Shown here piece after piece: positions 8,685-20,432 of a stretch of 33,021 nt of DNA. A model generated the notes under the pieces. That model had not been told where the DNA came from, searched no databases, and saw nothing but the letters and a program-made list of their open reading frames with translations. A program made the translations under genes and the position numbers. Every line of letters starts with the position of its first letter. The first letter of the stretch is position 1. Source of the DNA: an uncultured Flavobacteriales bacterium. GTDB taxonomy: Bacteria > Bacteroidota > Bacteroidia > Flavobacteriales_D > Crocinitomicaceae. The DNA lies in contig CAJXMN010000023.1 in the NCBI GenBank assembly GCA_913056215.1, forward strand, positions 1 through 33,021. The letters run 5' to 3'.

Positions 8685-9989
8685 ATGGGGAATATAATTG
8701 CTATTGTTGGAAGACCAAATGTCGGTAAATCAACACTATTTAATCGCTTGACAGAATCAAGGCACTCAATTGTAGAAGGTCAGTCTGGAGTAACGCGCGA
8801 TCGTATCTACGGCAAAGGTTTATGGAATGGACAGGAGTTTTCTGTTGTCGATACCGGGGGCTACGTTAAAGGATCGGATGACGTGTTTGAGAGCGCGATC
8901 CGAAAGCAAGTGGAAATTGCCGTTGAAGAAGCCAATGCGATCATATTTATGGTCGATGTTCAAACGGGTATAACGGATTTGGACGAACGCGTAGCAGCAT
9001 TGTTGCGAAAAACAAAAAAAGATGTCTACATTGCTGCTAATAAGGTAGACAATAGTAAATTGATCGGAATGTCCTCGGAATTCTGGTCATTGGGAGTAGG
9101 CGAAGTTTTCGATCTTTCGGCTACGAACGGTTCCGGAACGGGAGATTTACTCGATGCCATTGTGGAAAAATTTACACCAGATGATGCCGATGTAGAAGAG
9201 GATTTACCGCGTTTTGCCATTGTTGGGAAACCAAATGTCGGTAAGTCTTCTTTGGCTAATGCGCTGATTGGAAAGGAACGCAATATTGTTACACCTATTT
9301 CAGGAACGACCAGGGATTCCGTGAACACGCGATACAATGCCTTTGGATTTGATTTTCTTTTAATTGATACGGCAGGAATACGAAAAAAAGCTAAGGTGCA
9401 CGAGGATATTGAATACTATTCGGTGTTGCGTTCAGTGCGCACCATCGAAAGTGCTGATGTCTGTATCTTTTTGATCGATGCAACGGAGGGGATACAGAAG
9501 CAAGACCTCAATATTTATTACATGTGCGAGAAGAATCACAAAGGCGTGGTCGTGCTCGTGAACAAATGGGATTTAATAGAGAAAGATCACAAGACCACAC
9601 GCGATATGGAACTCAAAATCAAGCGTCAACTATCACCGTTTAATGATGTGCCGATTGTTTTTACCTCTTCACTACATAAACAACGCATTCATAGAGCACT
9701 CAAAGCTGCTATGCGTGTCTATGAAAATCGCATTAAAAAGATCCAGACATCTGTATTGAATGAAGTGATGTTAAAGGAGATTGAACACAATCCACCACCT
9801 TCTATAAAAGGGAAATTCATCAATATCAAGTTTGTTTCACAGTTACCAACGCATGCACCCGCTTTTGCGTTTTTCTGTAACCTACCACAATATATCCGCG
9901 ACAATTATAAACGATTTTTAGAGAATAAATTGCGCGAACATTTCGATTTTGAAGGGGTCCCTGTTCGGGTCTTTTTTAGAAAGAAATAA
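8685..9989 (+). CDS. der: Ribosome-assembly GTPase Der (EngA)
   Basis: Der has two tandem GTPase domains and a C-terminal KH-like domain, and acts in late 50S assembly. The first G domain has GRPNVGKST near residue 8, DTGG, and NKVD. The second has GKPNVGKSS near residue 180, DTAGIRKK, and NKWD. The C-terminal domain ends FDFEGVPVRVFFRKK, a conserved Der ending. The 434-aa length matches the family. It is probably co-transcribed with era, from which it is separated by 3 bp. Confidence 0.97.
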   Translation: MGNIIAIVGRPNVGKSTLFNRLTESRHSIVEGQSGVTRDRIYGKGLWNGQEFSVVDTGGYVKGSDDVFESAIRKQVEIAVEEANAIIFMVDVQTGITDLDERVAALLRKTKKDVYIAANKVDNSKLIGMSSEFWSLGVGEVFDLSATNGSGTGDLLDAIVEKFTPDDADVEEDLPRFAIVGKPNVGKSSLANALIGKERNIVTPISGTTRDSVNTRYNAFGFDFLLIDTAGIRKKAKVHEDIEYYSVLRSVRTIESADVCIFLIDATEGIQKQDLNIYYMCEKNHKGVVVLVNKWDLIEKDHKTTRDMELKIKRQLSPFNDVPIVFTSSLHKQRIHRALKAAMRVYENRIKKIQTSVLNEVMLKEIEHNPPPSIKGKFINIKFVSQLPTHAPAFAFFCNLPQYIRDNYKRFLENKLREHFDFEGVPVRVFFRKK

Positions 9990-10175
9990 TAGAAATACTA
10001 TTGCTGCAGTGCGAAACTTTCTTAGATGATGATTAGTTCCGAAAGGACCGCTATTCGGGATACATTCGCGAGTAGAGATTTTGGAATTTACCACGAGTTT
10101 AATGAGTTGTATAAAAACGGATAATTATTTTATCGGAACGGACAATTATGAAAGGTGCGTATCGATAGCTTAGTG

Positions 10176-10211
10176 TTCTATTGCCAAGAGTTGAAACCCT
10201 TGGCAATAGAA
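10176..10211. repeat. 13-bp perfect inverted repeat, 10-nt loop
   Basis: TTCTATTGCCAAG (10176-10188) is exactly complementary to CTTGGCAATAGAA (10199-10211). It lies about 190 bp after der. There is no T-run on either side, so it is not a standard intrinsic terminator. A factor-bound operator, a processing site or a terminator lacking a U-tract are possible. Confidence 0.6.
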
Positions 10212-10296
10212 GATGATGACATAAAGCCACTCAGGGGATATATTCAATACTTTTACGCTTTGCTTAGCTACTACATTCGTCGTGAATTCTAAAGTC

Positions 10297-10337
10297 GAAT
10301 AAAAAACAAAACGGTCACATTTAAAAATGCAACCGTT
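10297..10337 (-). terminator. Terminator-like hairpin reading on the minus strand
   Basis: AACGGT-ca-CATTT (10310-10322) pairs with AAATG-ca-ACCGTT (10325-10337) around a 2-nt turn, with a small CA/CA internal loop. Read on the minus strand, the hairpin is followed by TTTTGTTTTTT (complement of the A-run at 10300-10310). This has the form of an intrinsic terminator for leftward transcription. No leftward gene is evident to its right, so it may end antisense transcription or be a relic. Confidence 0.35.
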
Positions 10338-10369
10338 CTGCCTTAAACCAATCATAAACCAACCAGAAA
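10333..10369 (+). repeat. 37-bp exact repeat, copy 1 (distal block of the duplicated upstream region)
   Basis: Identical to 13087-13123. It is the left boundary of the recognisable duplicated region. Between this block and the 317-bp block (10370-10484 here, 13124-13239 in the other copy) the two copies are alignable but clearly diverged and differ in length by one base. Confidence 0.9.
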
Positions 10370-10665
10370 ATTACTTTATAAACGTTTGAAAGTGATAAAA
10401 GGTTGGAAAAAATTGTACTTTTTCTTTGCGCGGGTATTTTGCGAAGGATAGTAGTGGAGTGGGTAATATCGACTGCTTTTAAACTGCTGTATTTGGCAAT
10501 ACCTGACAAGGTTAGTAAGTAGAAGGATTGCCCGTTTTGTAGAAGGTGAAAACGAGAATAAGAATATAAACCCTCTTCAGGTGAAAGCGGGGCATATTTT
10601 CATTCACATAATTCGTGCAAAAAATGTTAAAAAAATTGGATTTATAAAAAATGAATTAGTAAAAC

Positions 10666-10695
10666 TTGGTGAGCCGTTTTTATTTTTTAAACTTG
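10666..10695 (+). promoter_or_regulatory. Predicted promoter in repeat copy 1
   Basis: TTG (10666-10668), 19 nt, then TAAACTTG (10688-10695), a 7 of 8 match to the Bacteroidota -7 consensus TAnnTTTG with suitable spacing to a -33 TTG. Transcription would start near 10701, giving a 5' leader of about 90 nt that contains the stem-loop at 10744-10766. An identical promoter lies at 13421-13450. Confidence 0.45.
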
Positions 10696-10743
10696 CACTG
10701 TTTAGCTGATAACGAAGGCCTTATTGAGTATCTATTGAACCAC

Positions 10744-10766
10744 TTAAGTCGAATATTTCGGCTTAA
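10744..10766 (+). promoter_or_regulatory. Leader stem-loop / palindrome, copy 1
   Basis: TTAAGTCGAA (10744-10753) pairs with TTCGGCTTAA (10757-10766) around the loop TAT, giving ten pairs including one G-U. It ends 25 nt before the ATG at 10792. An identical copy is at 13499-13521. It could be an RNA hairpin acting on stability or translation, or a DNA operator; no T-run follows, so it is not a terminator. Confidence 0.55.
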
Positions 10767-10791
10767 TAACTTAAATTAAAATTGAATAATT

Positions 10792-11379
10792 ATGAAAAGA
10801 GTGATGGTAAGCAGCGTAATGGTAATTGCTGCAATGTTGTTTTCCTGTGAAAAAGAGCAGGTGGATACGAATGAAGATATTTCGAATGAGTTGGCACAGC
10901 GCTCAGATCATGGAAGTGCAAACGATCAAAAGGAAGGAGAGAACGCTACGAAAGAAGTAGGAGATGAACTCTGTGAATGTACTGGCTTTGAGCTTAGAAG
11001 GGATGAATCGGGCTACAGCTGCCCGCGGTCTGCTGAAGATAATTGCTCAAAAGTTCAACCTTGCCCTTGTGACTTAATTGCAGATGTTGGTTTGGAAACT
11101 CATTTTGATAAAGATAATTTCGATCTTTTTCAGGAAGCACTAGCAGATAATACGTTGACTGAGTTTTTCTCGTCCAAAGCCTGGGTTGGTGTTTTTAATG
11201 GGTTAAAAGAAAAACCTGAAATACATGAAGCACTAAAATCTGGTGAAGCAACGGTTGTGGAGTACATGCAATCCGATAAAGTATACTATTTTATTGTTGA
11301 CGAAGCGTTGGATAACGCCGATAATATTCAGGTTTCAGATGCCATGTTGACCTTAGAAGTTCCAGTTGCTGAGTTATAA
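10792..11379 (+). CDS. Cysteine-rich lipoprotein of unknown function (cassette A, first gene)
   Basis: A 195-aa predicted lipoprotein. The signal peptide runs from MKRVMVSSVM to the lipobox LFSC, with Cys19 as the lipidation site. An acidic, hydrophilic stretch (20-60) follows. Then six cysteines occur within residues 61-93 in the order CxC, C77, C85, CxC, followed by a less polar C-terminal domain (about 97-195). The cysteines suggest disulfides or metal binding in the envelope; I do not recognise the family. Its first three codons and the whole upstream region are identical to those of the gene at 13547, although the proteins are unrelated. A propeller lipoprotein follows after 38 bp. Confidence 0.85.
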   Translation: MKRVMVSSVMVIAAMLFSCEKEQVDTNEDISNELAQRSDHGSANDQKEGENATKEVGDELCECTGFELRRDESGYSCPRSAEDNCSKVQPCPCDLIADVGLETHFDKDNFDLFQEALADNTLTEFFSSKAWVGVFNGLKEKPEIHEALKSGEATVVEYMQSDKVYYFIVDEALDNADNIQVSDAMLTLEVPVAEL

Positions 11380-11393
11380 TTGAATAAGCGAAA

Positions 11394-11414
11394 AGCTATT
11401 TTACTAAATTAGCT
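11394..11414 (+). promoter_or_regulatory. Hairpin just before the cassette A propeller gene
   Basis: AGCTA (11394-11398) pairs with TAGCT (11410-11414), continued after a T/T mismatch by TTT with AAA around a 3-nt loop. It ends 3 nt before the ATG at 11418, so it could cover the ribosome landing site. Cassette B has a much stronger hairpin in the equivalent place. Confidence 0.3.
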
Positions 11415-11417
11415 GAT

Positions 11418-12548
11418 ATGATACAACAAAAAATTCTTGGACTTTTCGTCTTCTTCGGAGGAATGCTTTTGAGCTGCACTTCGAAGAGCGAAAAGGTCAA
11501 GGATATACGAGCGCATGATTTCAAAATACCCACCGAGATAGCTGCGGTTGAGAACATGGGCTGGAGAGTACAATCGGAGGGCGGAATGGATTTTATCACC
11601 TATATTGATACTGCTTCAAACTTATACCTTTTTGATGTAATGCGCAATCGCGTTGTCGATACCGTAAAACTGCAAATGAGTGAAACCGGAATTGACTTTA
11701 ATTACTATCCAAGGAGGGTATATTATCACTCGAAAGATTCAATTTTCATCCTCCCCGATGATGGGAGTCGCTCTATATTTATGGTCAATGCAAGAGGCGA
11801 AATTGAACGAAAGTGGGATATTGATCTGAAGGTAGATTATCCTTATTTAGTTTCTGGTTACCATTGGAATCCACTTTGCTTTAAAGACGGTAAGTTGATT
11901 GTTCGCTTCATTCCAAATATCAATTTTAATAACAACCGCAATACTTTCTTTAATATACCACCTGATTTAGTGATTAATACTAATAATGATTCTATCTGGC
12001 GTATTGGGAAATGGCCGAAAAAGTATCGAACTCAAAATTTTAACGCTGCACAAACACATCGAATTGTATTGTCTAATAGAGAAGTTCAAATAATTTATTC
12101 GCATGATGCGGACCATAATCTCTATGTTTTTAATGAGAAAGATTTCAAAGGGAAAGTGACTGCTAAGAGCAATTATATTAGTGAATTTGACATCTATTCT
12201 GATGATAGTTTAGATAATATAGCCTATACGATGCGCTATCTTTCAACTGCCCCTAGATACAAAGACATATTTTACGATGCTCAGCGCAAGGAATATTATA
12301 GGGTAGCGCTGCACCGAACAAATTATATCGATAAAGAGACCAATCGAAAAAAACGTGGATTTGATCGTCCCTGGTCCATCATTATTCTTGATTCTACGTT
12401 TGAAAAAATCGATGAAGTCAAGTTTGACCCTGATGAGTATCGAGCGGGTCCCCTGCTCATGACTAGTGAGGGGTTGTGGATACCACGCACTTCAGAGAAT
12501 GGAGATTTTTACAACTATTCATTTAGTAATTTCAATCAGTTGAGATGA
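11418..12548 (+). CDS. Beta-propeller-like lipoprotein, DUF4221-like (cassette A)
   Basis: A 376-aa predicted lipoprotein. The signal peptide MIQQKILGLFVFFGGMLLSC ends in a lipobox with Cys20. The mature part is rich in short beta-strand motifs separated by polar turns, such as DTASNLYLFDVMRNRVVDTV and EKIDEVKF. A late block (APRYKDIFYDAQRKEYYRVALHR) resembles the Bacteroidota DUF4221 and 6-bladed propeller lipoproteins. The family call is by eye. These proteins are envelope-anchored, and their ligands are generally unknown. Its 3' end overlaps the next start (ATGA at 12545-12548), indicating translational coupling. The stop-interrupted gene at 15622 is a probable paralogue. Confidence 0.8.
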   Translation: MIQQKILGLFVFFGGMLLSCTSKSEKVKDIRAHDFKIPTEIAAVENMGWRVQSEGGMDFITYIDTASNLYLFDVMRNRVVDTVKLQMSETGIDFNYYPRRVYYHSKDSIFILPDDGSRSIFMVNARGEIERKWDIDLKVDYPYLVSGYHWNPLCFKDGKLIVRFIPNINFNNNRNTFFNIPPDLVINTNNDSIWRIGKWPKKYRTQNFNAAQTHRIVLSNREVQIIYSHDADHNLYVFNEKDFKGKVTAKSNYISEFDIYSDDSLDNIAYTMRYLSTAPRYKDIFYDAQRKEYYRVALHRTNYIDKETNRKKRGFDRPWSIIILDSTFEKIDEVKFDPDEYRAGPLLMTSEGLWIPRTSENGDFYNYSFSNFNQLR

Positions 12549-13012
12549 GGTTTTTGTTGGCTATAGCAATAGCATTGCTTCTCGTGGGAGCAGGATGTAG
12601 TCAGAGAACTAGCGAAAGCGCTAATGATCGAAAAACGCAGGTTTTTTCAAGCTACTTACAGGAAGAGTTGTCACTTAGCATTCCGAATCAAGAACACTAC
12701 TACTTAATTGTTCACAAGGTTGGATGCCAGGGAGTGATCGAGTCAGCGCTCATGGATTTAAATCATGATTTTATGGAGCAAAAGAATATAGCGGTCATAA
12801 CTTCCAACAGACAGCTCGTGGATAAGTATTTTTCCGATGAAAAAGTGAAAATATACTATGATAGAACTATTGATGTTATCAATCTTCCCCTTTATAATGT
12901 TAGCCTGATTAAGACCAGTAAAAAGCAGGTCTCATACATTCTTTCCGAACGAAAATGTTCGATAGATTTCGGCGAAGTAATTAAAGATTCATTAACCAAT
13001 GGCTTACCATGA
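12545..13012 (+). CDS. Thioredoxin-like lipoprotein with degenerate active site (cassette A)
   Basis: A 155-aa predicted lipoprotein: signal peptide MRFLLAIAIALLLVGAGC, lipid Cys18. The core (YYLIVHKVGCQGVIESAL) has the strand-loop-helix pattern of a thioredoxin-type fold, but the active-site-like motif is C61-Q-G-V64, without a second cysteine. Two other proteins in this island have CxxC at the same place (CSNC in the 13963 product, CSSC in the 16707 product). It may therefore have lost redox activity or act as a binding module. A further cysteine lies near residue 139. It starts inside the stop of the propeller gene. The thioredoxin-like call is inference from pattern, not a search. Confidence 0.7.
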   Translation: MRFLLAIAIALLLVGAGCSQRTSESANDRKTQVFSSYLQEELSLSIPNQEHYYLIVHKVGCQGVIESALMDLNHDFMEQKNIAVITSNRQLVDKYFSDEKVKIYYDRTIDVINLPLYNVSLIKTSKKQVSYILSERKCSIDFGEVIKDSLTNGLP

Positions 13013-13086
13013 GTTTTGTATGCAACATTTGCTTGTGTATCACTCACCAATCAAATCGACTTAACAGTCGCACGCTTCAAACGCAG

Positions 13087-13123
13087 CCGTTCTGCCTTAA
13101 ACCAATCATAAACCAACCAGAAA
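13087..13123 (+). repeat. 37-bp exact repeat, copy 2
   Basis: Identical to 10333-10369. It marks the left edge of the second copy of the duplicated upstream region. Confidence 0.9.
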
Positions 13124-13420
13124 GTTAACTCCTAAACGTTTGAACAATATAAATGGTTGGAAGAAAGTGTACTTTTTCTTGTGCATTCCAATTTTACCAT
13201 GGATAGTGTTGGAATTGAAAACATTGACTGAGTGCGGAATGCTGTATTTGGCAATACCTGACAAGGTTAGTAAGTAGAAGGATTGCCCGTTTTGTAGAAG
13301 GTGAAAACGAGAATAAGAATATAAACCCTCTTCAGGTGAAAGCGGGGCATATTTTCATTCACATAATTCGTGCAAAAAATGTTAAAAAAATTGGATTTAT
13401 AAAAAATGAATTAGTAAAAC

Positions 13421-13450
13421 TTGGTGAGCCGTTTTTATTTTTTAAACTTG
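13421..13450 (+). promoter_or_regulatory. Predicted promoter in repeat copy 2
   Basis: TTG (13421-13423), 19 nt, TAAACTTG (13443-13450); identical to the predicted promoter of cassette A. The leader would be about 90 nt. Confidence 0.45.
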
Positions 13451-13498
13451 CACTGTTTAGCTGATAACGAAGGCCTTATTGAGTATCTATTGAACCAC

Positions 13499-13521
13499 TT
13501 AAGTCGAATATTTCGGCTTAA
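13499..13521 (+). promoter_or_regulatory. Leader stem-loop / palindrome, copy 2
   Basis: Same 10-pair stem with the TAT loop as at 10744-10766, again ending 25 nt before the start codon. Confidence 0.55.
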
Positions 13522-13546
13522 TAACTTAAATTAAAATTGAATAATT

Positions 13547-13915
13547 ATGAAAAGAGGAATTTATTTGTCGCTCATTAGTGTTTTTATGTGTTTTATTGCT
13601 TTCTCTCAATCTAATCACAAGTTGGATGGGAAGAGTAAAGGTTTCAAAACAATTGTTAATCATTCTTCTGGTCTGAAAGCTATCTATTCAGATAAAGTCA
13701 AAACACAAAGGGACGGTAAAACCTACGAATTTGAAGGAAATGTTCGAGTGGAAGATTTGGGAGGACCTATCCCTCCTGCAGCTGGATGTGGAGGAAAAAA
13801 ATGGGTTTGTGGAGAGGCTGTAGCAGTTTCAGAATCAGGAGAAATCACTAAGGTTACCTGTGTTGGAACAGAAAAGAAATGTCTTAAATTAAAAAAGGCT
13901 AAAGTTCAAAAATAA
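13547..13915 (+). CDS. Small secreted four-cysteine protein (cassette B, first gene)
   Basis: A 122-aa protein with an N-terminal signal peptide (hydrophobic core about residues 5-19, likely cut after AFS or FSQ near 20-21); no lipobox. The mature protein is basic and ends in a Lys-rich tail. Its C-terminal half has four cysteines in a symmetric pattern, C81-x6-C88 and C105-x6-C112, separated by 16 residues, preceded by a Gly/Pro-rich turn (LGGPIPPAAG). The layout of a small Cys-containing exported protein before a propeller protein recalls NVEALA-type genes of Bacteroidales, but I see no NVEALA motif and do not claim membership. A strong hairpin follows the stop. Confidence 0.8.
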   Translation: MKRGIYLSLISVFMCFIAFSQSNHKLDGKSKGFKTIVNHSSGLKAIYSDKVKTQRDGKTYEFEGNVRVEDLGGPIPPAAGCGGKKWVCGEAVAVSESGEITKVTCVGTEKKCLKLKKAKVQK

Positions 13916-13925
13916 ACGTAATAAC

Positions 13926-13959
13926 GCATCGTTACCATTTTTGGTAACGATGCTATTTT
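13926..13959 (+). terminator. Strong hairpin between the two genes of cassette B (terminator or attenuator)
   Basis: GCATCGTTACCA (13926-13937) pairs perfectly with TGGTAACGATGC (13942-13953) around a TTTT loop, followed by TATTTT. It has the form of an intrinsic terminator. It begins 10 nt after the stop of the 13547 gene and its tail ends 3 nt before the ATG at 13963. It should therefore both stop most transcripts after the small gene and block ribosome access to the next one. Confidence 0.75.
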
Positions 13960-13962
13960 GCC

Positions 13963-15480
13963 ATGAAGTATTTCGCAACTATACTCCTGCTATTACCAAC
14001 AATGAGTCTACTATCACAAACTGATAAGTCGCGTTGTGAAGAATTAGATGGTCTTTATTCAGCATCAAAATCCAGAGCAATCACGTTTGTTTATCTCAAT
14101 ACGAACGGTTGCTCGAACTGTCTTGCAAGCTTGGAAAAAATATTTAAAAGCGATGAAAAAGGGGTTGTTAGTAATGTATATTATGTAGTTGGAGGTATAG
14201 AAGCCGAAGAGATTAACTATTATTTTCAGCACGTTATGGGTGAAAAAGCTGAAAAATTTGCAATACTTAAAAGCCCTCAATGCTCAAACGGATTCAAATC
14301 GAATGAACAATCAAAAGTTCGTGTTATAAGCAATGGCGAGGTGATTTTCGAAAAACTATTAAAAAACATCGCGTTTGATAGTATTCCATTCGATCAACCC
14401 CAATCTGTTCACGTGAATCTTTTGGGTGAGTCTCCAATTGAAATGGAAAATGATTTTTTGTTGAAAGGCGGGGTTTTCCATATTCTTGATTCATCCACTA
14501 TCTTGTGCTTAAACACCAAATACCAGAGCTTGTTGTCAATTGATATAGAAACAAATGAAGCAAGTGAAATACTAAAGTCAAAGGATATTCCTATTAATTT
14601 TGACACTGTCTTACGCAATCGATTTGACGATTCCGTCAAAAGAACGATTTTATCAGATGGACTTCTGAAGCAATTTGAATTAACTAACCTTTCAGTAAAT
14701 GAAGCGGGTAGTATTTTTTTTAGTGGAAAAGTTCGATACAAACAAATTGAGGATTCGATTCAAAGTACCATGAATTTTCCAGTTATTCTTAAGACGAACA
14801 AAGAATTGGATACTTTCGATGTTTTTCCAGTAAAAGGACTTAAAGAAAAAGGATATGCTGTCTTTCCTGACCATTTTTACATAAGAAATCGTGCGTGTTT
14901 TATTAAGGTCTTCAAAACAGGTGATAAATCATTAAAAGAGCGTTATCACTCTGTAGCTAAGTTGGCAAGAGACGACGGCCAATTTGAGTTTTCGGAGTTT
15001 GTTCTAACATTACCGAATTACTTCTATTCCAATCAGCTATTATTTAACTTTTCGAATGGGACCTTTTACAAGTACGGAAGTTCAATCTACCATATCTTTA
15101 ATGTTTTTCCGAAAGTATTTGATATTTCTCAAGAAAACAGTAGTCATTATTTTCCTCGTCATGAACATCAGCAATCCGTTTTTAATTTTGAAGATTACCA
15201 TTTTGATATTCGTTACCGCTCGCTTGATTTCCATAAGTTCAAAGGATATTCCTTTCTAATTTCAAGGGACAAAACAGATGAATCCTCATCAACGCTACTT
15301 GAGATATGGGATAATAATATCAGGAATAAGCCTTACTTTAAAACAGTAAAATTATTTTCCCAGGATAAGCCAACCAATAATCAGACAGTAGAAGCTTTTT
15401 CCTCTAAGGACAAGCTCTTTGTGCTTCGTTTAGAGAATGGGAAATATAAAATTTATCAATTTGAAATAACTGTATCTTAA
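13963..15480 (+). CDS. Exported thioredoxin-like / beta-propeller fusion protein (cassette B)
   Basis: A 505-aa protein with a signal peptide (MKYFATILLLLPTMSLLSQ, no lipobox). Residues about 35-150 look like a thioredoxin fold: strand ITFVYLNT, then C50-S-N-C53 at the start of a helix. Residues about 160-505 are beta-rich with repeated strand-turn motifs (for example LCLNTKYQSLLSIDIETNEA and KLFVLRLENGKYKIYQFEITV), consistent with a propeller like that of the 11418 product. Cassettes A and C encode these two parts as separate adjacent proteins, so the fusion supports a shared function. The gene lacks its own clear promoter and starts just after the strong hairpin. Domain calls are by eye. 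Confidence 0.75.
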   Translation: MKYFATILLLLPTMSLLSQTDKSRCEELDGLYSASKSRAITFVYLNTNGCSNCLASLEKIFKSDEKGVVSNVYYVVGGIEAEEINYYFQHVMGEKAEKFAILKSPQCSNGFKSNEQSKVRVISNGEVIFEKLLKNIAFDSIPFDQPQSVHVNLLGESPIEMENDFLLKGGVFHILDSSTILCLNTKYQSLLSIDIETNEASEILKSKDIPINFDTVLRNRFDDSVKRTILSDGLLKQFELTNLSVNEAGSIFFSGKVRYKQIEDSIQSTMNFPVILKTNKELDTFDVFPVKGLKEKGYAVFPDHFYIRNRACFIKVFKTGDKSLKERYHSVAKLARDDGQFEFSEFVLTLPNYFYSNQLLFNFSNGTFYKYGSSIYHIFNVFPKVFDISQENSSHYFPRHEHQQSVFNFEDYHFDIRYRSLDFHKFKGYSFLISRDKTDESSSTLLEIWDNNIRNKPYFKTVKLFSQDKPTNNQTVEAFSSKDKLFVLRLENGKYKIYQFEITVS

Positions 15481-15529
15481 TCATTGTTGTCCCAAGTTGT
15501 GATATGGAAATGGTACACTTCCACCAGGA

Positions 15530-15622
15530 ATGAGTTTTGAAGAATTTCGAGAGGCATGGAATAATGAGGATACCAGAAGTGAACTTGAGGCTGATGGATA
15601 CGAATCAATAGATGAGAAGTGA
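15530..15622 (+). CDS. Tiny ORF coupled to the cassette C propeller gene (possible remnant)
   Basis: A 30-aa acidic ORF beginning MSFEEFREAWNNEDTRSEL. Its TGA (15620-15622) overlaps the ATG of the next gene (15622), the arrangement of translational coupling. The frame stays open upstream to a TGA at 15500-15502 with protein-like sequence (YGNGTLPPG) and no other start, so it may be the 3' end of a decayed small gene equivalent to the first genes of cassettes A and B. No signal peptide is present in what remains. Confidence 0.35.
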   Translation: MSFEEFREAWNNEDTRSELEADGYESIDEK

Positions 15623-16725
15623 TGAAAGTTCTATTAACGCTTACCTTTATAGTTGTTTTAGTGGGGTTCTTTTCCTGTGAGAGAACCCCGCAAAATGACG
15701 ATAGTTCTCCTGCTAGACCTCGTGTGTTAGATTTTTCATACGACACGGTGTCAGTTATCGGTCGACCTAACTACATTACGAATTTTAGTGATTACTATCA
15801 ACCCTTTAAGAGCAACCATGTTTACTTTTTGGATGAGCAATCGAGCTGTTTATCGCGAATCAATATTAAAAATGGAAAGATGGACTCTCTATTCAGTTTA
15901 AATCCATCGGAAAAACCGATAACATTTACAGTTTCTCAGCGGGAAGAGCGCTGTTATTTCTTTTATGCGGATCATATTTCCGAGTATGATTTGAACGGTA
16001 ACCGACGAGAAAAGCATGCCATCGAAGGAGTATGCGGTAACCGTGGCGAGATGACAATACAAAGTAAGCGATTTAGACCGTTGATCATAAAGTCTAATCT
16101 TTATATGCATTACTTTCCATACACCGAACGAGGTTATAAAAATCCAGAATTTTATGCGGAACCAATCGAAGCTCAATTTAGTCTTTCCAAAGGGAAATGT
16201 AAATTTTTAAACACGACCTATCCCCGAAATTTTCAACAACAATGTTACGGTTTAAATTATTGCCCTGAACGCTTTTTGATGGACGATGCTGGTAATTAGG
16301 GTTACACCTTCACTTATAACGATAGTTTGTTTATTGAAAATCCTGCAACGGGGGAACAATCTACTCATTTCTTTGGGACGAGATGTGAAGACTTGCAATT
16401 CAAACATTTAAACTTCAAAGATGTGCCAAACCTTAATAAAACCGTATTCCACGATATGCTGCAAGAAAATCCATATTATGGTTTCTCAGCGTCGCTTCCC
16501 TTAGCGGGATATTACGTGCGGTTTTATATGAGAAGTGATCAGGCAGACAAAGGTTTCCGAAGAGCGATTTGTGTGTACAATGAATCGCTGGAATATGTGG
16601 GAGAATCTCAATTAGGTGGTTTGATTAACAAAACCGTTGGCCTTGGTGATTCAGCATCAGGAATAACAACTTTTGATCTGAGTAAGAACAAAAATAACAT
16701 TATAATATGCCGTGTAAATTTTTAA
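15622..16725 (+). pseudogene. Beta-propeller-like lipoprotein gene interrupted by TAG (cassette C)
   Basis: One reading frame of 367 sense-length codons, broken only by TAG at 16297-16299. The signal peptide MKVLLTLTFIVVLVGFFSC ends in a lipobox (Cys19). The part after the stop continues in the same frame (GYTFTYNDSLFIENPATGEQ) and aligns by eye to the 11418 product (DADHNLYVF there, DAGN-stop-GYTF here). It is therefore a propeller paralogue of similar length. ATG 15622 is preferred over the GTG at 15619. It could be a recent pseudogene or a sequencing error; the lack of other damage suggests the lesion is new. The next gene overlaps its end. Confidence 0.75.
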
Positions 16726-17201
16726 TGTTGTATTGCATATTCATCTTTATTAATTCCTCCTGTGATGAGCATTCCATTACAAGTAACAAGGAATCTGGGG
16801 ATTCTCTGGAATTTGATTCTGAAACATACGAATTGGCGAACTATATCCAAAGAATGAATGCTTTCTTAGACCACAATTCTCAAAAGGTCAATAAGTCAAC
16901 CGATTATATAGTAGTACTGAATGCTTCGCAATGTTCTTCATGTGTCCAGGCACAGTTTTCTAATTTTACTAACAAACTCAACGACTTCAGTGGAAAGTTT
17001 TTAGTAATCTCAGATGATTCCTCATTTATTCATTCGACACATGACTCATCCATTCGTTTTGAAATATTTCCACGCGATTTATTTGACCGATTCGACGTTG
17101 TTCATCGAAATATATATATTTATTCCATGGATAAAGGTAGGATTCATTCTACCGAATTATTAACAAATGACAAAATGGATAGTTTGATTCATAGTGAATA
17201 A
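16707..17201 (+). CDS. Thioredoxin-like lipoprotein with CxxC (cassette C)
   Basis: A 164-aa predicted lipoprotein with a short signal peptide ending NSSC (Cys19). An in-frame ATG at 16725 overlaps the stop of the upstream gene (TAATG) and is an alternative start, but it would lose the only positive charge of the signal peptide. The core DYIVVLNASQC76-S-S-C79VQ has the strand-CxxC-helix pattern of a thioredoxin-like oxidoreductase. It is the equivalent of the 12545 product, which lacks the second cysteine. A role in disulfide handling at the cell envelope is possible but not shown. Confidence 0.7.
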   Translation: MPCKFLMLYCIFIFINSSCDEHSITSNKESGDSLEFDSETYELANYIQRMNAFLDHNSQKVNKSTDYIVVLNASQCSSCVQAQFSNFTNKLNDFSGKFLVISDDSSFIHSTHDSSIRFEIFPRDLFDRFDVVHRNIYIYSMDKGRIHSTELLTNDKMDSLIHSE

Positions 17202-17247
17202 CTGTGAGGACGTGAATGGTATCAAGATGGTGTACAAATTTTTACCC

Positions 17248-17915
17248 GGGCGGTGGGGGGCGCTACCCAATATTGGCTTATCGTGGAATTTTTAGTAAAT
17301 TGAAGGTGTATGAAATCGCTTGTTTTTTTGAGTTTCGTTTTCTTATTCAGTTCCGTTATTTGTGGACAAACATCCTCATTTGCACGAAAGCTAAGCGTAG
17401 AAATAAACGGCTCTTATTACTGGATCAATGAGCTCGGAAATACTAATGACAATCTGGGGTTTAATAAAACATTCAGTGAGTTGAGTTTCAGTCCTTCGTT
17501 CAATGTCAATATCAGTGACCGCTTTTATATTGGATTGCGCAATTACCTCGTTCGGGCGAGAGGTCATATTTTACCTGGATTCACCAGTTGGCATTATTTA
17601 ATCGGACCTACAGTAAAGTATACGCTCCTTAGCGAAACCCGGGTGGAATTGAACGCGGAGGTTGCCTATTATTTTGGGAACTATTGTTCAATATGTAAGC
17701 CAACAAACGAGGACTACAACACTTCGATGCAGTACATTGGATTAGCAATGAACATCAACTTACAGTTGTTCAAAGATATTCCCGAATGGTGGCTTAAGTT
17801 GGGCTTTGCCGTCAACCGGACGCTCTACGTGAAGCACAAAAATGGTTCTGCCAGAAATTATAACCTTCCGCTGCTTGGCTTGCAATACCGTTTTGGAAAG
17901 TGGGGTGAAAATTAA
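17248..17915 (+). repeat. Tandem duplication, unit 1
   Basis: Directly repeated, with divergence, at 17989-18657. The unit includes about 60 bp upstream of the gene and the whole coding sequence. The 30 bp at 17277-17306, ending 3 nt before the ATG, are identical to 18017-18046 and so are more conserved than the coding parts. Confidence 0.85.
17310..17915 (+). CDS. Outer-membrane beta-barrel-like protein
   Basis: A 201-aa protein with a cleavable signal peptide (MKSLVFLSFVFLFSSVICGQ). Alternating amphipathic strands follow (SVEINGSYYWI, LSFSPSFNVNISDRFYIGLRNYLV, RVELNAEVAYYFGNYC). The end is LLGLQYRFGKWGEN, with aromatic residues close to the C-terminus as in small outer-membrane barrels. 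A CSIC motif lies in a predicted loop after the YYFGNY strand. Function unknown. The gene sits 108 bp after cassette C and is tandemly duplicated as a broken copy downstream. Confidence 0.75.
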   Translation: MKSLVFLSFVFLFSSVICGQTSSFARKLSVEINGSYYWINELGNTNDNLGFNKTFSELSFSPSFNVNISDRFYIGLRNYLVRARGHILPGFTSWHYLIGPTVKYTLLSETRVELNAEVAYYFGNYCSICKPTNEDYNTSMQYIGLAMNINLQLFKDIPEWWLKLGFAVNRTLYVKHKNGSARNYNLPLLGLQYRFGKWGEN

Positions 17916-17988
17916 TGGAAATGCGCAACCCAATAGTTGAATACAGGTCATTTGTTTTACCTGCTCATAATTCATCAATTGTTTAACT

Positions 17989-18657
17989 GGGCGATGGGTG
18001 CCATACTCAATACTGACTTATCGTGGAATTTTTAGTAAATTGAAGGAGTATGAAATCGCTTGTTTTATTGAGTTTTGTTCTCGTATTCAGTTCCCTCCTA
18101 TGGAGACAAACATCCTCTTTTGCGCGAAAGCTGAGCGTGGAAATGAATGCTTTTTACTATTGGATTAGTGAGGGAACTGCCAACTTGAATGACAACTTTG
18201 GGCTGAATAAAGTGAAGACTTTTGGAGAATTGATTTTCATTCCTGCCTTTTCTATCAGTATCACCGATCGCTTTTTTTTGGACTGCGCACCTATATCGTC
18301 CGCGCCCGAGGTCATATTACTCCCGTTTTTACCAGTTGGCATCACTTAATTGGTCCCACCGTCAAATATCATATTGTGAACAAAGACAGAGTGGAATTGA
18401 ACGCGGAAGTTGAATGTTATTTTGGAAATTATTGTTCTATATGTGAACCAGGTAGCGAGGACGACAATACTTCGATGCAGTACATTGGTGGGGTGTTCAG
18501 TGTGAACTATCAGCTTTTGAAGGAACGCCGAGACTAGTGGTTCCAGTTGAGTTTTGCCTATAATCGCCCGTTTTACGTAAAGTACAAGAGCGGATCTCCC
18601 AGAACGTATAATATTTTTCTGCTGGGCTTACAATACCGTTTTGGTAAGTGGGATTAA
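17989..18657 (+). repeat. Tandem duplication, unit 2
   Basis: Second unit of the tandem pair described at 17248-17915; it contains the degraded paralogue. Confidence 0.85.
18050..18657 (+). pseudogene. Broken paralogue of the barrel protein (frameshift and stop)
   Basis: It starts MKSLVLLSFVLVFSSLLWRQ, closely matching the intact neighbour. The frame is lost at the run of eight Ts (18272-18279), one base short of what the paralogue requires. In the restored frame the sequence continues as GLRTYIVRARGHI, then meets TAG at 18535-18537, where the paralogue has TGG (EWWLKLGF). After that, WFQLSFAYNRPFYVKYKSG and the barrel end LLGLQYRFGKWD are intact. Two independent lesions make sequencing error unlikely as the only cause. 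Confidence 0.85.
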
Positions 18658-18893
18658 CTGATAATTTACAGAAAAGAATAGGGTGGTTTCAATGATTGCT
18701 CATGAATCCATAAACAGCCCAATACCGCTAAATTTTCCAACTGATGTACGATCGTGAGGGGCGTTTTATTTTTGATCTTTCACCAAAAAATAACCGGACA
18801 TGAAGTGGTGCGCTCTAAAAAAGGTGGAAAAAAATTATATTTCCTCTCTATTTACCCGTTCTTTTGTATCTTCATCCTTGAAAAGTAAGCTGT

Positions 18894-20432
18894 ATGCCGT
18901 TTAATACAATTTTTGGGTGGTTAATCAAAAAACGGATTCACCAAATAGAACTGTTTCGGAAATACCCGAAGGAAGTTCAAAAAGAGTGGCTTGAACGCTT
19001 AGTTCATCATGGAAGGAGTACGCTTTTTGGTGAAAAATACGGTTTTGATTCCATTCAAAATTATGAAGACTTCAAGGCCAAAGTACCGCTTCAGGATTAC
19101 GAAGATGTAAAAGCATGGGTTGATCTCGCGGTATCCGGAGAAGATCACGTTTTATGGCCGGGAGAGACCAAATGGTTTGCGAAATCTTCGGGTACCACTT
19201 CGGATCGCAGTAAATTCATTCCAGTAACCAAAGACTCCCTGGAAGATTGTCATTACAAGGGAGGAAAGGATTTATTGGCTATTTATTATTCGCATTTTCC
19301 ATCGACTAAACTCTATAAAGGGAAACACCTCGTTGTAGGAGGAACGGCAACGCAGAATCAACTCCGACCGGATAGCTATTCGGGTGACCTTTCAGCAATT
19401 ATTCTTAAAAATCTGCCGTGGTGGGTGGAAATTAAACGTACCCCTGCGCGACACATTGCTTTGATGAGTGAATGGGAGGAAAAAATTGAACAGCTCGCTG
19501 ATTCTACCATGAAGGAGGATGTTTCGAGTATTTCTGGTGTTCCAAGCTGGACGCTGGTGCTTTTAAATAGAATTTTGGAAAAAGCGGGTGCAACCGATAT
19601 TCGTGAAGTCTGGCCTAATCTTGAGTTGTTTATGCACGGTGGTGTCTCTTTTAAACCTTACGAAGAAGAATTCAGACGAATTATCCCCCACGATGACATG
19701 AATTATATCGAATCCTATAATGCCTCTGAAGGCTTTTTTGGAATTCAGGATGAAATCGACGGAGATTTGTTGTTGATGCTTGATTATGGCGTCTTTTTTG
19801 AATTTATTCCGATGGATGAGTATGCCGGTACGGATTCGAAATCGGTTGTGGGTATACAAGATGTGGAGCTGGATAAAAATTACGCGGTGGTCATCTCGAC
19901 AAACGGAGGACTCTGGCGCTACATTATTGGCGATACCGTGAAATTTACCAGTATTGCTCCGTATCGCGTTGTCGTTTCGGGGCGCACCAAACACTTCATC
20001 AACGTATTTGGGGAAGAAGTTATAGTAGAGAATGCCGATCGGGCACTCGAACAAGCTTGTCGCGAAACTTCGGCGCTGCTTAAAGATTATACGGCCTGTC
20101 CCGTTTTTATGGAAGGGGGAAAGCAGGGTGGACACGAATGGTTGGTTGAATTTTCGAAGGAACCAACCGACATCGAAAGATTTACCGCGTCTCTGGATAG
20201 CGCACTGCGAGCAATTAACTCAGATTATGATGCCAAACGCACGAATAATTTGACGCTGGATTTTCCAAAAGTACATCACATGGCTTCGGGAACCTTTGAA
20301 AAATGGTTGAAATCGAAAGGAAAATTGGGAGGACAGCATAAAGTGCCTCGTCTTTCCAATAGCCGTGCGGTAGTCGAAGAGATTTTAACCGCAAACAACG
20401 GAACGGTTCTTGATAATGTCAAATCAGTATGA
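18894..20432 (+). CDS. GH3 family acyl-acid amido synthetase
   Basis: A 512-aa cytosolic protein of the GH3 (auxin-responsive GH3-like) branch of adenylate-forming enzymes, which activate a carboxylic acid with ATP and couple it to an amine. The nucleotide motifs are in order: SSGTTS (98-103), YNASEGFFG (around 280) and GRTKHFINVFGEE (around 365). The C-terminal domain ends with KWLKSKGKLGGQHKVPRLSNSR. Length is normal for bacterial GH3. Bacterial substrates are mostly unknown and cannot be read from the sequence. The next gene overlaps its stop by 4 bp. Confidence 0.92.
   Translation: MPFNTIFGWLIKKRIHQIELFRKYPKEVQKEWLERLVHHGRSTLFGEKYGFDSIQNYEDFKAKVPLQDYEDVKAWVDLAVSGEDHVLWPGETKWFAKSSGTTSDRSKFIPVTKDSLEDCHYKGGKDLLAIYYSHFPSTKLYKGKHLVVGGTATQNQLRPDSYSGDLSAIILKNLPWWVEIKRTPARHIALMSEWEEKIEQLADSTMKEDVSSISGVPSWTLVLLNRILEKAGATDIREVWPNLELFMHGGVSFKPYEEEFRRIIPHDDMNYIESYNASEGFFGIQDEIDGDLLLMLDYGVFFEFIPMDEYAGTDSKSVVGIQDVELDKNYAVVISTNGGLWRYIIGDTVKFTSIAPYRVVVSGRTKHFINVFGEEVIVENADRALEQACRETSALLKDYTACPVFMEGGKQGGHEWLVEFSKEPTDIERFTASLDSALRAINSDYDAKRTNNLTLDFPKVHHMASGTFEKWLKSKGKLGGQHKVPRLSNSRAVVEEILTANNGTVLDNVKSV

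Follow-up and report, generated by a model that had tools for sequence, protein, structure and literature searches.

Why do two neighbouring genes that encode unrelated proteins begin with exactly the same 317 bases? The question is raised by a contig from an uncultured Flavobacteriales bacterium of the Crocinitomicaceae (NCBI GenBank assembly GCA_913056215.1, contig CAJXMN010000023.1), of which we analysed positions 1 to 33,021 of the forward strand (hereafter the window). The two genes, A and B, lie between der and a GH3-like gene, and the identical block covers a predicted promoter, the 5' untranslated region (5'UTR) and the first three codons of each. The block probably represents the latest stretch to be homogenised within an expression leader that occurs in several copies, a lineage-specific family that drives exchangeable cassettes for exported proteins.

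An identical leader precedes two unrelated genes

Direct comparison of the two blocks (Table 1) bore out the exact repeat described in the original prediction: they agree at 317 of 317 bases, with a mismatch directly outside each edge and a start-to-start distance of 2755. The block begins 215 bases before the predicted transcription start and continues through ATG AAA AGA to the first base of codon 4, so that identity does end within codon 4 as had been noticed. Consistent with unrelated proteins, blastp gave no match between the two at E<=1 within the set compared, and direct reading agrees that a deletion from one copy to the other would take out 2755 bp, a leader and gene B being kept intact. 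At an expected identity of 90%, an identical run of 317 bases would have a chance of about 10^-14.5; the 95% upper bound on the divergence between the blocks is 0.94%.

The upstream sequence had been described as diverged except for an exact 37-bp block. Alignment recovers the 37-bp block, but the sequence upstream is a duplicated piece of ancestral spacer, part of it aligning with the der-GH3 spacer of a congener: positions 10312-10430 are 87.0% identical to their partner upstream of B (115 aligned bases, 8 gap columns), and positions 10431-10484 are 68.8% identical (48 aligned bases, 12 gap columns). Identity towards the leader therefore runs 87, 69 and 100%, and the 317 bp, at 0% divergence, lie next to a duplicated flank that is 13-31% diverged. 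Because the flanks upstream of A and B are also alike, about 490 bp was duplicated in all, the identical part being the leader-proximal 317 bp.

The leader belongs to a multi-copy family

The whole-genome search for further copies that had been proposed was run, and it gave three more full leaders and one cut by a contig end. The genome thus holds at least six copies, five of them full (A, B, C27, C61 and C27b) and one, C108, truncated. They share a module of about 210 bp that consists of promoter-like sequence and 5'UTR and ends at ATG-AAA. A DNA search of the genome detected C27 (80% identity, query bases 118-314), C61 (73%, 115-314) and C108 (79%, 118-203, where the contig breaks off), all three matches starting only at base 115-118 of the 317-bp block. 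C27b, near C27:21080-21215, was added by a covariance model, and with a second covariance model, R2, each of the five full copies (A and B among them) is recovered. When gaps are disregarded and only aligned positions counted, the identity of the other copies to A/B is about 73-87%, while C27 and C108 are closer to each other than to the rest (92.5% over 80 promoter bases). Upstream of the leader, four of the six possible pairs among A, C61, C27 and C27b were compared, and none aligned above shuffles.

These figures bear on how the identity arose. Since the other copies diverge to this extent and match only from base 115-118, constraint cannot produce 317 identical bases, and selection alone, one of the causes first suggested, fails. 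The presence of copies at other loci nevertheless means that a common function also conserves the leader. The identity is most simply explained if A and B recently underwent conversion or crossover with each other. Recent conversion or cassette insertion had been among the early suggestions, and that part fits, given the contrast with the flanks and the absence of the surrounding island from this junction in eight of nine congeners; the leader family and the origin of the spacer had been missed.

All five full leaders precede different small Cys-containing proteins, followed by propeller-like and/or thioredoxin-like genes. Throughout, export, lipoprotein, propeller-like and thioredoxin-like assignments for which no profile is cited are readings by eye, made without a signal-peptide program. 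Behind C27 lies a 154-aa (amino acid) lipoprotein and then a 215-aa lipoprotein; behind C61, a 123-aa exported protein, a 387-aa propeller-like protein and a CxxC lipoprotein; behind C27b, a 200-aa Cys-rich lipoprotein and then a thioredoxin-domain lipoprotein (PF13905, E 2.1e-9). A transporter gene (L016:4255-5658) is a neighbour of C27b. The five small proteins carry 4-11 Cys each including the signal peptide, the C61 cargo only two outside it. Clear relatedness is seen only between the A and C27 cargo (38% identity over the N-terminal 55 residues, E 6e-10). In a set of 18 proteins, B and C61 cargo were at most weakly alike (21% over 107 residues, E 0.017), as were A and C27b cargo (E 0.08). 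None of the five reached a Pfam cut-off, and neither A nor B reached an NCBIfam cut-off.

Sequence comparison indicates that the cargo is rare in the genus. Proteins A and B each matched only their own genome among 20 searched, and the DUF4221 protein of cassette A matched, among 10 genomes, its own and a weak stretch in G008 (E 0.005). In a collection of genome contigs, protein B gave 33 pattern stretches and no tblastn relative. The leader behaves similarly: the first covariance model found it only in its own genome among 10 of the genus, R2 found it in one of 150 family genomes, again its own, under strict filters with 23 candidates scored per genome listed, and R2 found nothing in 27 congener stretches totalling 322,614 bases. 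A DNA search of 59 genomes returned the same genome and one 24-base stretch in G015 (E 8.6e-4, at the start-codon end of the leader). A plasmid search gave no match for the leader or for the 505-aa protein downstream of B.

Several weaker candidates were kept apart from the six copies. C123 and C8 have a T tract and a TAGACTTGCA box before two related larger proteins, exported by eye; their E-values were 0.0016 and 0.029 over 86,554 selected bases, and over the whole genome C123 had E 0.059 and C8 was unlisted at a threshold of 0.1. Both were left out of the count. The sites are L097:637-757 (minus strand) and L041:240-345 (minus strand), and both contigs end inside the genes. The C54 match (E 0.161) was unconvincing when its sequence was read and was excluded. 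The hairpin pattern occurred in two contigs (an archaeon and Prochlorococcus) and in one viral contig. R2 gave E 0.65 on the viral contig, over the place of the pattern, and E 2.9 on that of Prochlorococcus, and these were taken as chance; the exact A/B hairpin was absent from the viral contig collection.

A predicted promoter with a T tract

Bacteroidota promoters are described as TTTG / TANNTTTG, with the -7 box refined to TAHHTTTG and 4-5 nt from this box to the transcription start (PMC6847099). The leaders carry TTTG (CTTG in A/B), a spacer that contains the T tract and measures 17-22 bases in the four distinct full copies and 23 in C8, and a -7 box that reads TAGACTTG, TAAACTTG or TTGATTTG. 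In all four distinct leaders, the -7 box is followed at 4 nt by GUU, so that the predicted +1 is the G of GUUC/GUUU.

The T tract raises the possibility of phase variation, in which slippage between the -33 and -7 boxes would alter the spacer and switch the cassettes independently, as in mycoplasma vlp. The variable spacers fit this idea, and so do the T runs of 12, 15, 11, 11 (to the contig end), 15 and 16 in C27, C61, C27b, C108, C123 and C8, which lie just 5' of the -7 box or at a contig end and make up six of the nine runs of at least 9 T in the listed loci of this genome (86,554 bases). However, most of these loci were fetched because they had the leader or a T tract. The pattern T9-A-N-N-Y-TTG occurs four times in the genome, always as T9-AGACTTG, but the reversed-pattern control gives two, which makes the bare count weak. 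Moreover, the tract of A and B (10677-10688 in A) is interrupted (TTTTTATTTTTT), so both would be locked, and a T tract at the vpma promoter of M. agalactiae is reported not to drive variation (PMC2268961). We therefore regard phase variation as unlikely, although it fares best among the alternatives.

An island at a junction conserved in the genus

The der and GH3-like genes are neighbours, 155-307 bp apart, in eight of nine congeners, which makes the 8.9 kb that separates them in the window a lineage-specific island. In the ninth congener, G007, this junction holds another insert, of about 2.4 kb (L043, reverse strand, about 15587-17998), and may thus be a place where insertions occur readily. 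Copies of the ancestral der-GH3 spacer precede both leaders (Table 1), and cassette A is thus bracketed by two spacer and leader copies. At the right edge of the island, where a GH3-side remainder of the spacer is found, 18819-18842 resembles 10397-10420 within spacer copy 1, a weak 24-base match taken without a control.

A plain recent tandem duplication of leader and spacer, the leader having no functional constraint, would account for the spacing of 2755 and for the duplicated spacer on both sides of cassette A. It would leave unexplained why one part is 100% identical and the adjoining part only 69-87%, and why distant copies keep the promoter-like sequence, the distance to the start codon and a covarying hairpin. 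This explanation, already disfavoured on these grounds, is in our view improbable.

In all, three leader-bearing loci break up gene junctions that some or most congeners have intact. The C27 leader precedes Tex, and the C108 contig ends just after a CoA-transferase gene; the latter adjoins Tex in three of nine congeners (G007, G008 and G009), the other six having different genes directly upstream of Tex. This suggests that C108 and C27 form a second island that has at least two leaders and spans the contig break. The first bases of contig C27 encode the end of a small Cys-rich protein (L006:3-134, ending ...CASTQAFCC), which the C108 leader probably heads. At C61, the cassette separates a gene identified by eye as a histidine kinase from HutU; a kinase-like gene adjoins HutU in one of nine congeners (G007). 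Direct repeats of 60 bp (57/60 identical) flank this cassette, and each aligns to part of the single spacer before HutU in G009, the two parts overlapping.

Such uninterrupted junctions, together with direct repeats of the local target at two loci, are what would be expected if the leader belonged to a mobile element by which cassettes are inserted whole and the target is duplicated. Yet the 60- and ~120-bp repeats differ in sequence between the two sites, and none was found at C27/C108 or C27b. Nine open reading frames (ORFs) of the island (fragment 16327-16725 left out) gave no transposase or integrase match, and the window has no detected inverted repeat of at least 25 bp; overall, the scanned ORFs and loci yielded no transposase or recombinase, terminal inverted repeats or common attachment site. 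A mobile element is accordingly as doubtful as plain duplication.

It is very improbable that assembly wrote one stretch twice: the genome is a draft of 192 contigs and the C108 contig ends inside a T tract, but within a single contig the two copies have different flanks, the ends are fixed by der and GH3 just as they are in relatives, and the other leader copies are clearly diverged.

A probable structure in the 5' untranslated region

The predicted 5'UTR is 92-100 nt long across the leaders. It is predicted to contain a helix P1, GUUCN with NGAAC (one G-U pair in A/B, by eye), and a hairpin P2 that comes after GAACCAC. Over four distinct leaders, 94.4% of P2 cells are paired and five of nine pairs are changed on both sides; none of 500 shuffles reached this covariation score and nine of 500 reached the pair count. 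For P1 and P2 together, in three leaders, 5 of 15 pairs show changes on both sides, a number reached by three of 500 shuffles. Compensatory base changes are therefore present in the leader RNA, in only 3-4 distinct sequences. The leader has no counterpart among Rfam families at the gathering score, which gave no match in the window and none on leader loci L010, L012, L013 and L014. A loose search of four leader loci produced three sub-threshold matches, L20_leader (29.6 bits against 58.7), mir-7 and snR82, all on the minus strand, and these were rejected.

Attenuation by a leader peptide is highly unlikely: a 14-codon frame (LNHL...N) is found in A/B (10735-10779 in A), C27 (L006:2529-2573) and C61 (L007:1644-1688), but it starts with TTG, is missing in C27b, and is common partly because the sequences align there without gaps.

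Genes and other features of the island

DUF4221 includes the product of the second gene in cassette A (47.8 bits against a curated cut-off of 23.4), which we take to have a propeller fold. The 155-aa protein after it has no Pfam match, and NCBIfam matches only far below cut-off. The 505-aa protein downstream of B matched no Pfam or NCBIfam profile above cut-off and no PDB sequence. A single-sequence structure model of protein B was unusable (mean predicted local distance difference test score 42.4), and a PADLOC defence search with nine proteins gave no match. Terminator-like sites were no commoner than in shuffles (four against a mean of 5.1), so the hairpin after B counts as single-site evidence only.

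Table 1. Coordinates of the features described, in window positions
Feature	Position	Strand	Basis
Lineage-specific island between der (8685-9989) and GH3-like gene (18894-20432)	9990-18893	.	gene names by eye
Copy 1 of ancestral der-GH3 spacer, 5' of leader A	10301-10430	+	10301-10412 aligns to G009 spacer L042:18264-18376
Identical block, copy A (promoter, 5'UTR, first 3 codons)	10485-10801	+	exact comparison
Predicted promoter A: CTTG, 19-base spacer, -7 box TAAACTTG (10688-10695)	10665-10695	+	consensus of PMC6847099
Predicted 5'UTR A	10700-10791	+	start placed 4 nt after -7 box
Helix P1 in A	10700-10704 with 10736-10740	+	read directly in A/B; computed on the other three leaders
Hairpin P2 in A	10744-10753 with 10757-10766	+	covariation over four distinct leaders
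A cargo: 195-aa protein, lipoprotein by eye, 7 Cys including lipobox Cys	10792-11379	+	N-terminus related to C27 cargo
DUF4221 protein, lipoprotein by eye	11418-12548	+	PF13970 E=2e-12; PDB 3s9j E=6.1e-7
155-aa protein, lipoprotein and thioredoxin-like by eye only	12545-13012	+	gene order
Copy 2 of ancestral der-GH3 spacer, 5' of leader B	13067-13190	+	87.0% to copy 1; 13097-13168 aligns to L042:18307-18378
Identical block, copy B	13240-13556	+	exact comparison
Predicted promoter B, same as A at +2755	13420-13450	+	
Predicted 5'UTR B	13455-13546	+	same as A
B cargo: 122-aa exported protein by eye, 5 Cys (one in signal peptide)	13547-13915	+	sequence
Terminator-like hairpin (12 pairs) 3' of B	13926-13953	+	single-site evidence
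505-aa exported protein, N-terminal CxxC, thioredoxin-like part and propeller by eye	13963-15480	+	sequence
Third cassette, without this leader: propeller-like gene split by in-frame stop (15622-16299, 16327-16725)	15622-17201	+	
CxxC lipoprotein by eye, third cassette, 3' of the split gene	16707-17201	+	sequence
GH3-side remainder of ancestral spacer, island right edge	18819-18893	+	18820-18898 aligns to L042:18362-18442

The propeller-like gene of the third cassette, a lipoprotein gene, is interrupted by an in-frame TAG at 16297-16299, which suggests decay within the island. Further downstream, 17310-17915 and 18050-18349 encode tandem paralogous proteins, exported by eye, with 75-80% similar upstream sequence (repeats 17237-17740 and 17977-18488); the second ORF is shortened though the similarity continues.

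Discussion

We propose that A and B would have arisen by tandem duplication or by integration at the same locus, with the ancestral spacer copied too, and that a later conversion or crossover made 317 bp identical. If transcription starts at the G of GUUC/GUUU, the mRNA would begin with a 5'-terminal helix, followed by a hairpin upstream of the A/U-rich start region. A common leader could give all cassettes the same expression, whether by protecting the 5' end, by keeping the start codon open or through a single regulator. Being common to the cassettes, the leader is also a site where recombination can exchange, duplicate or delete cargo. A bolder version, in which the ~210-bp leader is a portable expression site that joins a slippage-prone promoter to a 5'-capping RNA, and in which recombination in the leader swaps and stacks exchangeable cargo (unrelated small Cys-rich exported proteins with their partner genes) at several chromosomal junctions, is speculative and we do not favour it.

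Several points weigh against a lineage-specific leader family that drives exchangeable cassettes. All three -7 boxes are off consensus at one or two places (TAGACTTG at -10 and -8, the TAAACTTG of A/B at -8), which counts against a strong promoter. The RNA structure is supported by only four distinct full leaders, its helices were chosen from these same leaders, and the register of the A/B hairpin was set by hand. The number of pair types in P2 was no better than shuffled (reached by 272 of 500), folding z-scores for P2 (-2.22, 0.01, -2.31 and -2.01) give modest support from energy, and the stretch that spans the whole A 5'UTR scored -0.60. The absence of the leader from relatives rests on the filtered searches with 23 candidates scored per genome. 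As for the loci, flanking direct repeats were found at two of four, the link of C108 to C27 is drawn from synteny across a contig break, and the comparison of junctions with relatives covered A/B, C27/C108 and C61.

A layout of several loci with a common leader is best known from mycoplasmas. There, vpma and vsp are paralogous loci with a common 5'UTR and much coding sequence that differs, vlp being switched by length changes in the promoter spacer and vpma by a recombinase (PMC2268961). The loci described here likewise have a conserved promoter and 5'UTR before different proteins. Unlike Vlp/Vpma, the region that encodes the signal peptide is mostly not common, clear N-terminal sharing being seen only between A and C27; no recombinase was found among the nine island ORFs scanned; and the loci are scattered, carry extra genes and have a Bacteroidota-type promoter. 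With the A/B tract interrupted, no recombinase seen and switching only hypothetical here, we regard the mycoplasma systems as the nearest kind, by analogy of layout, and do not place the leader family among them. Flavobacterial structured 5' regulatory RNAs including Flavo-1 (PMC9723704) are likewise structured 5'UTRs, in what is presumably a related group of bacteria; the difference is that one leader is here reused on several genes for exported proteins in a single lineage.

If a multi-copy leader does drive exchangeable cassettes in this bacterium, as we think probable, one short sequence would mark lineage-specific exported proteins that are otherwise unrecognisable, and could therefore be used for finding them. 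It would also offer, outside the mycoplasmas, a concrete route by which a bacterium could add or swap surface or secreted proteins without a new promoter having to be built each time.

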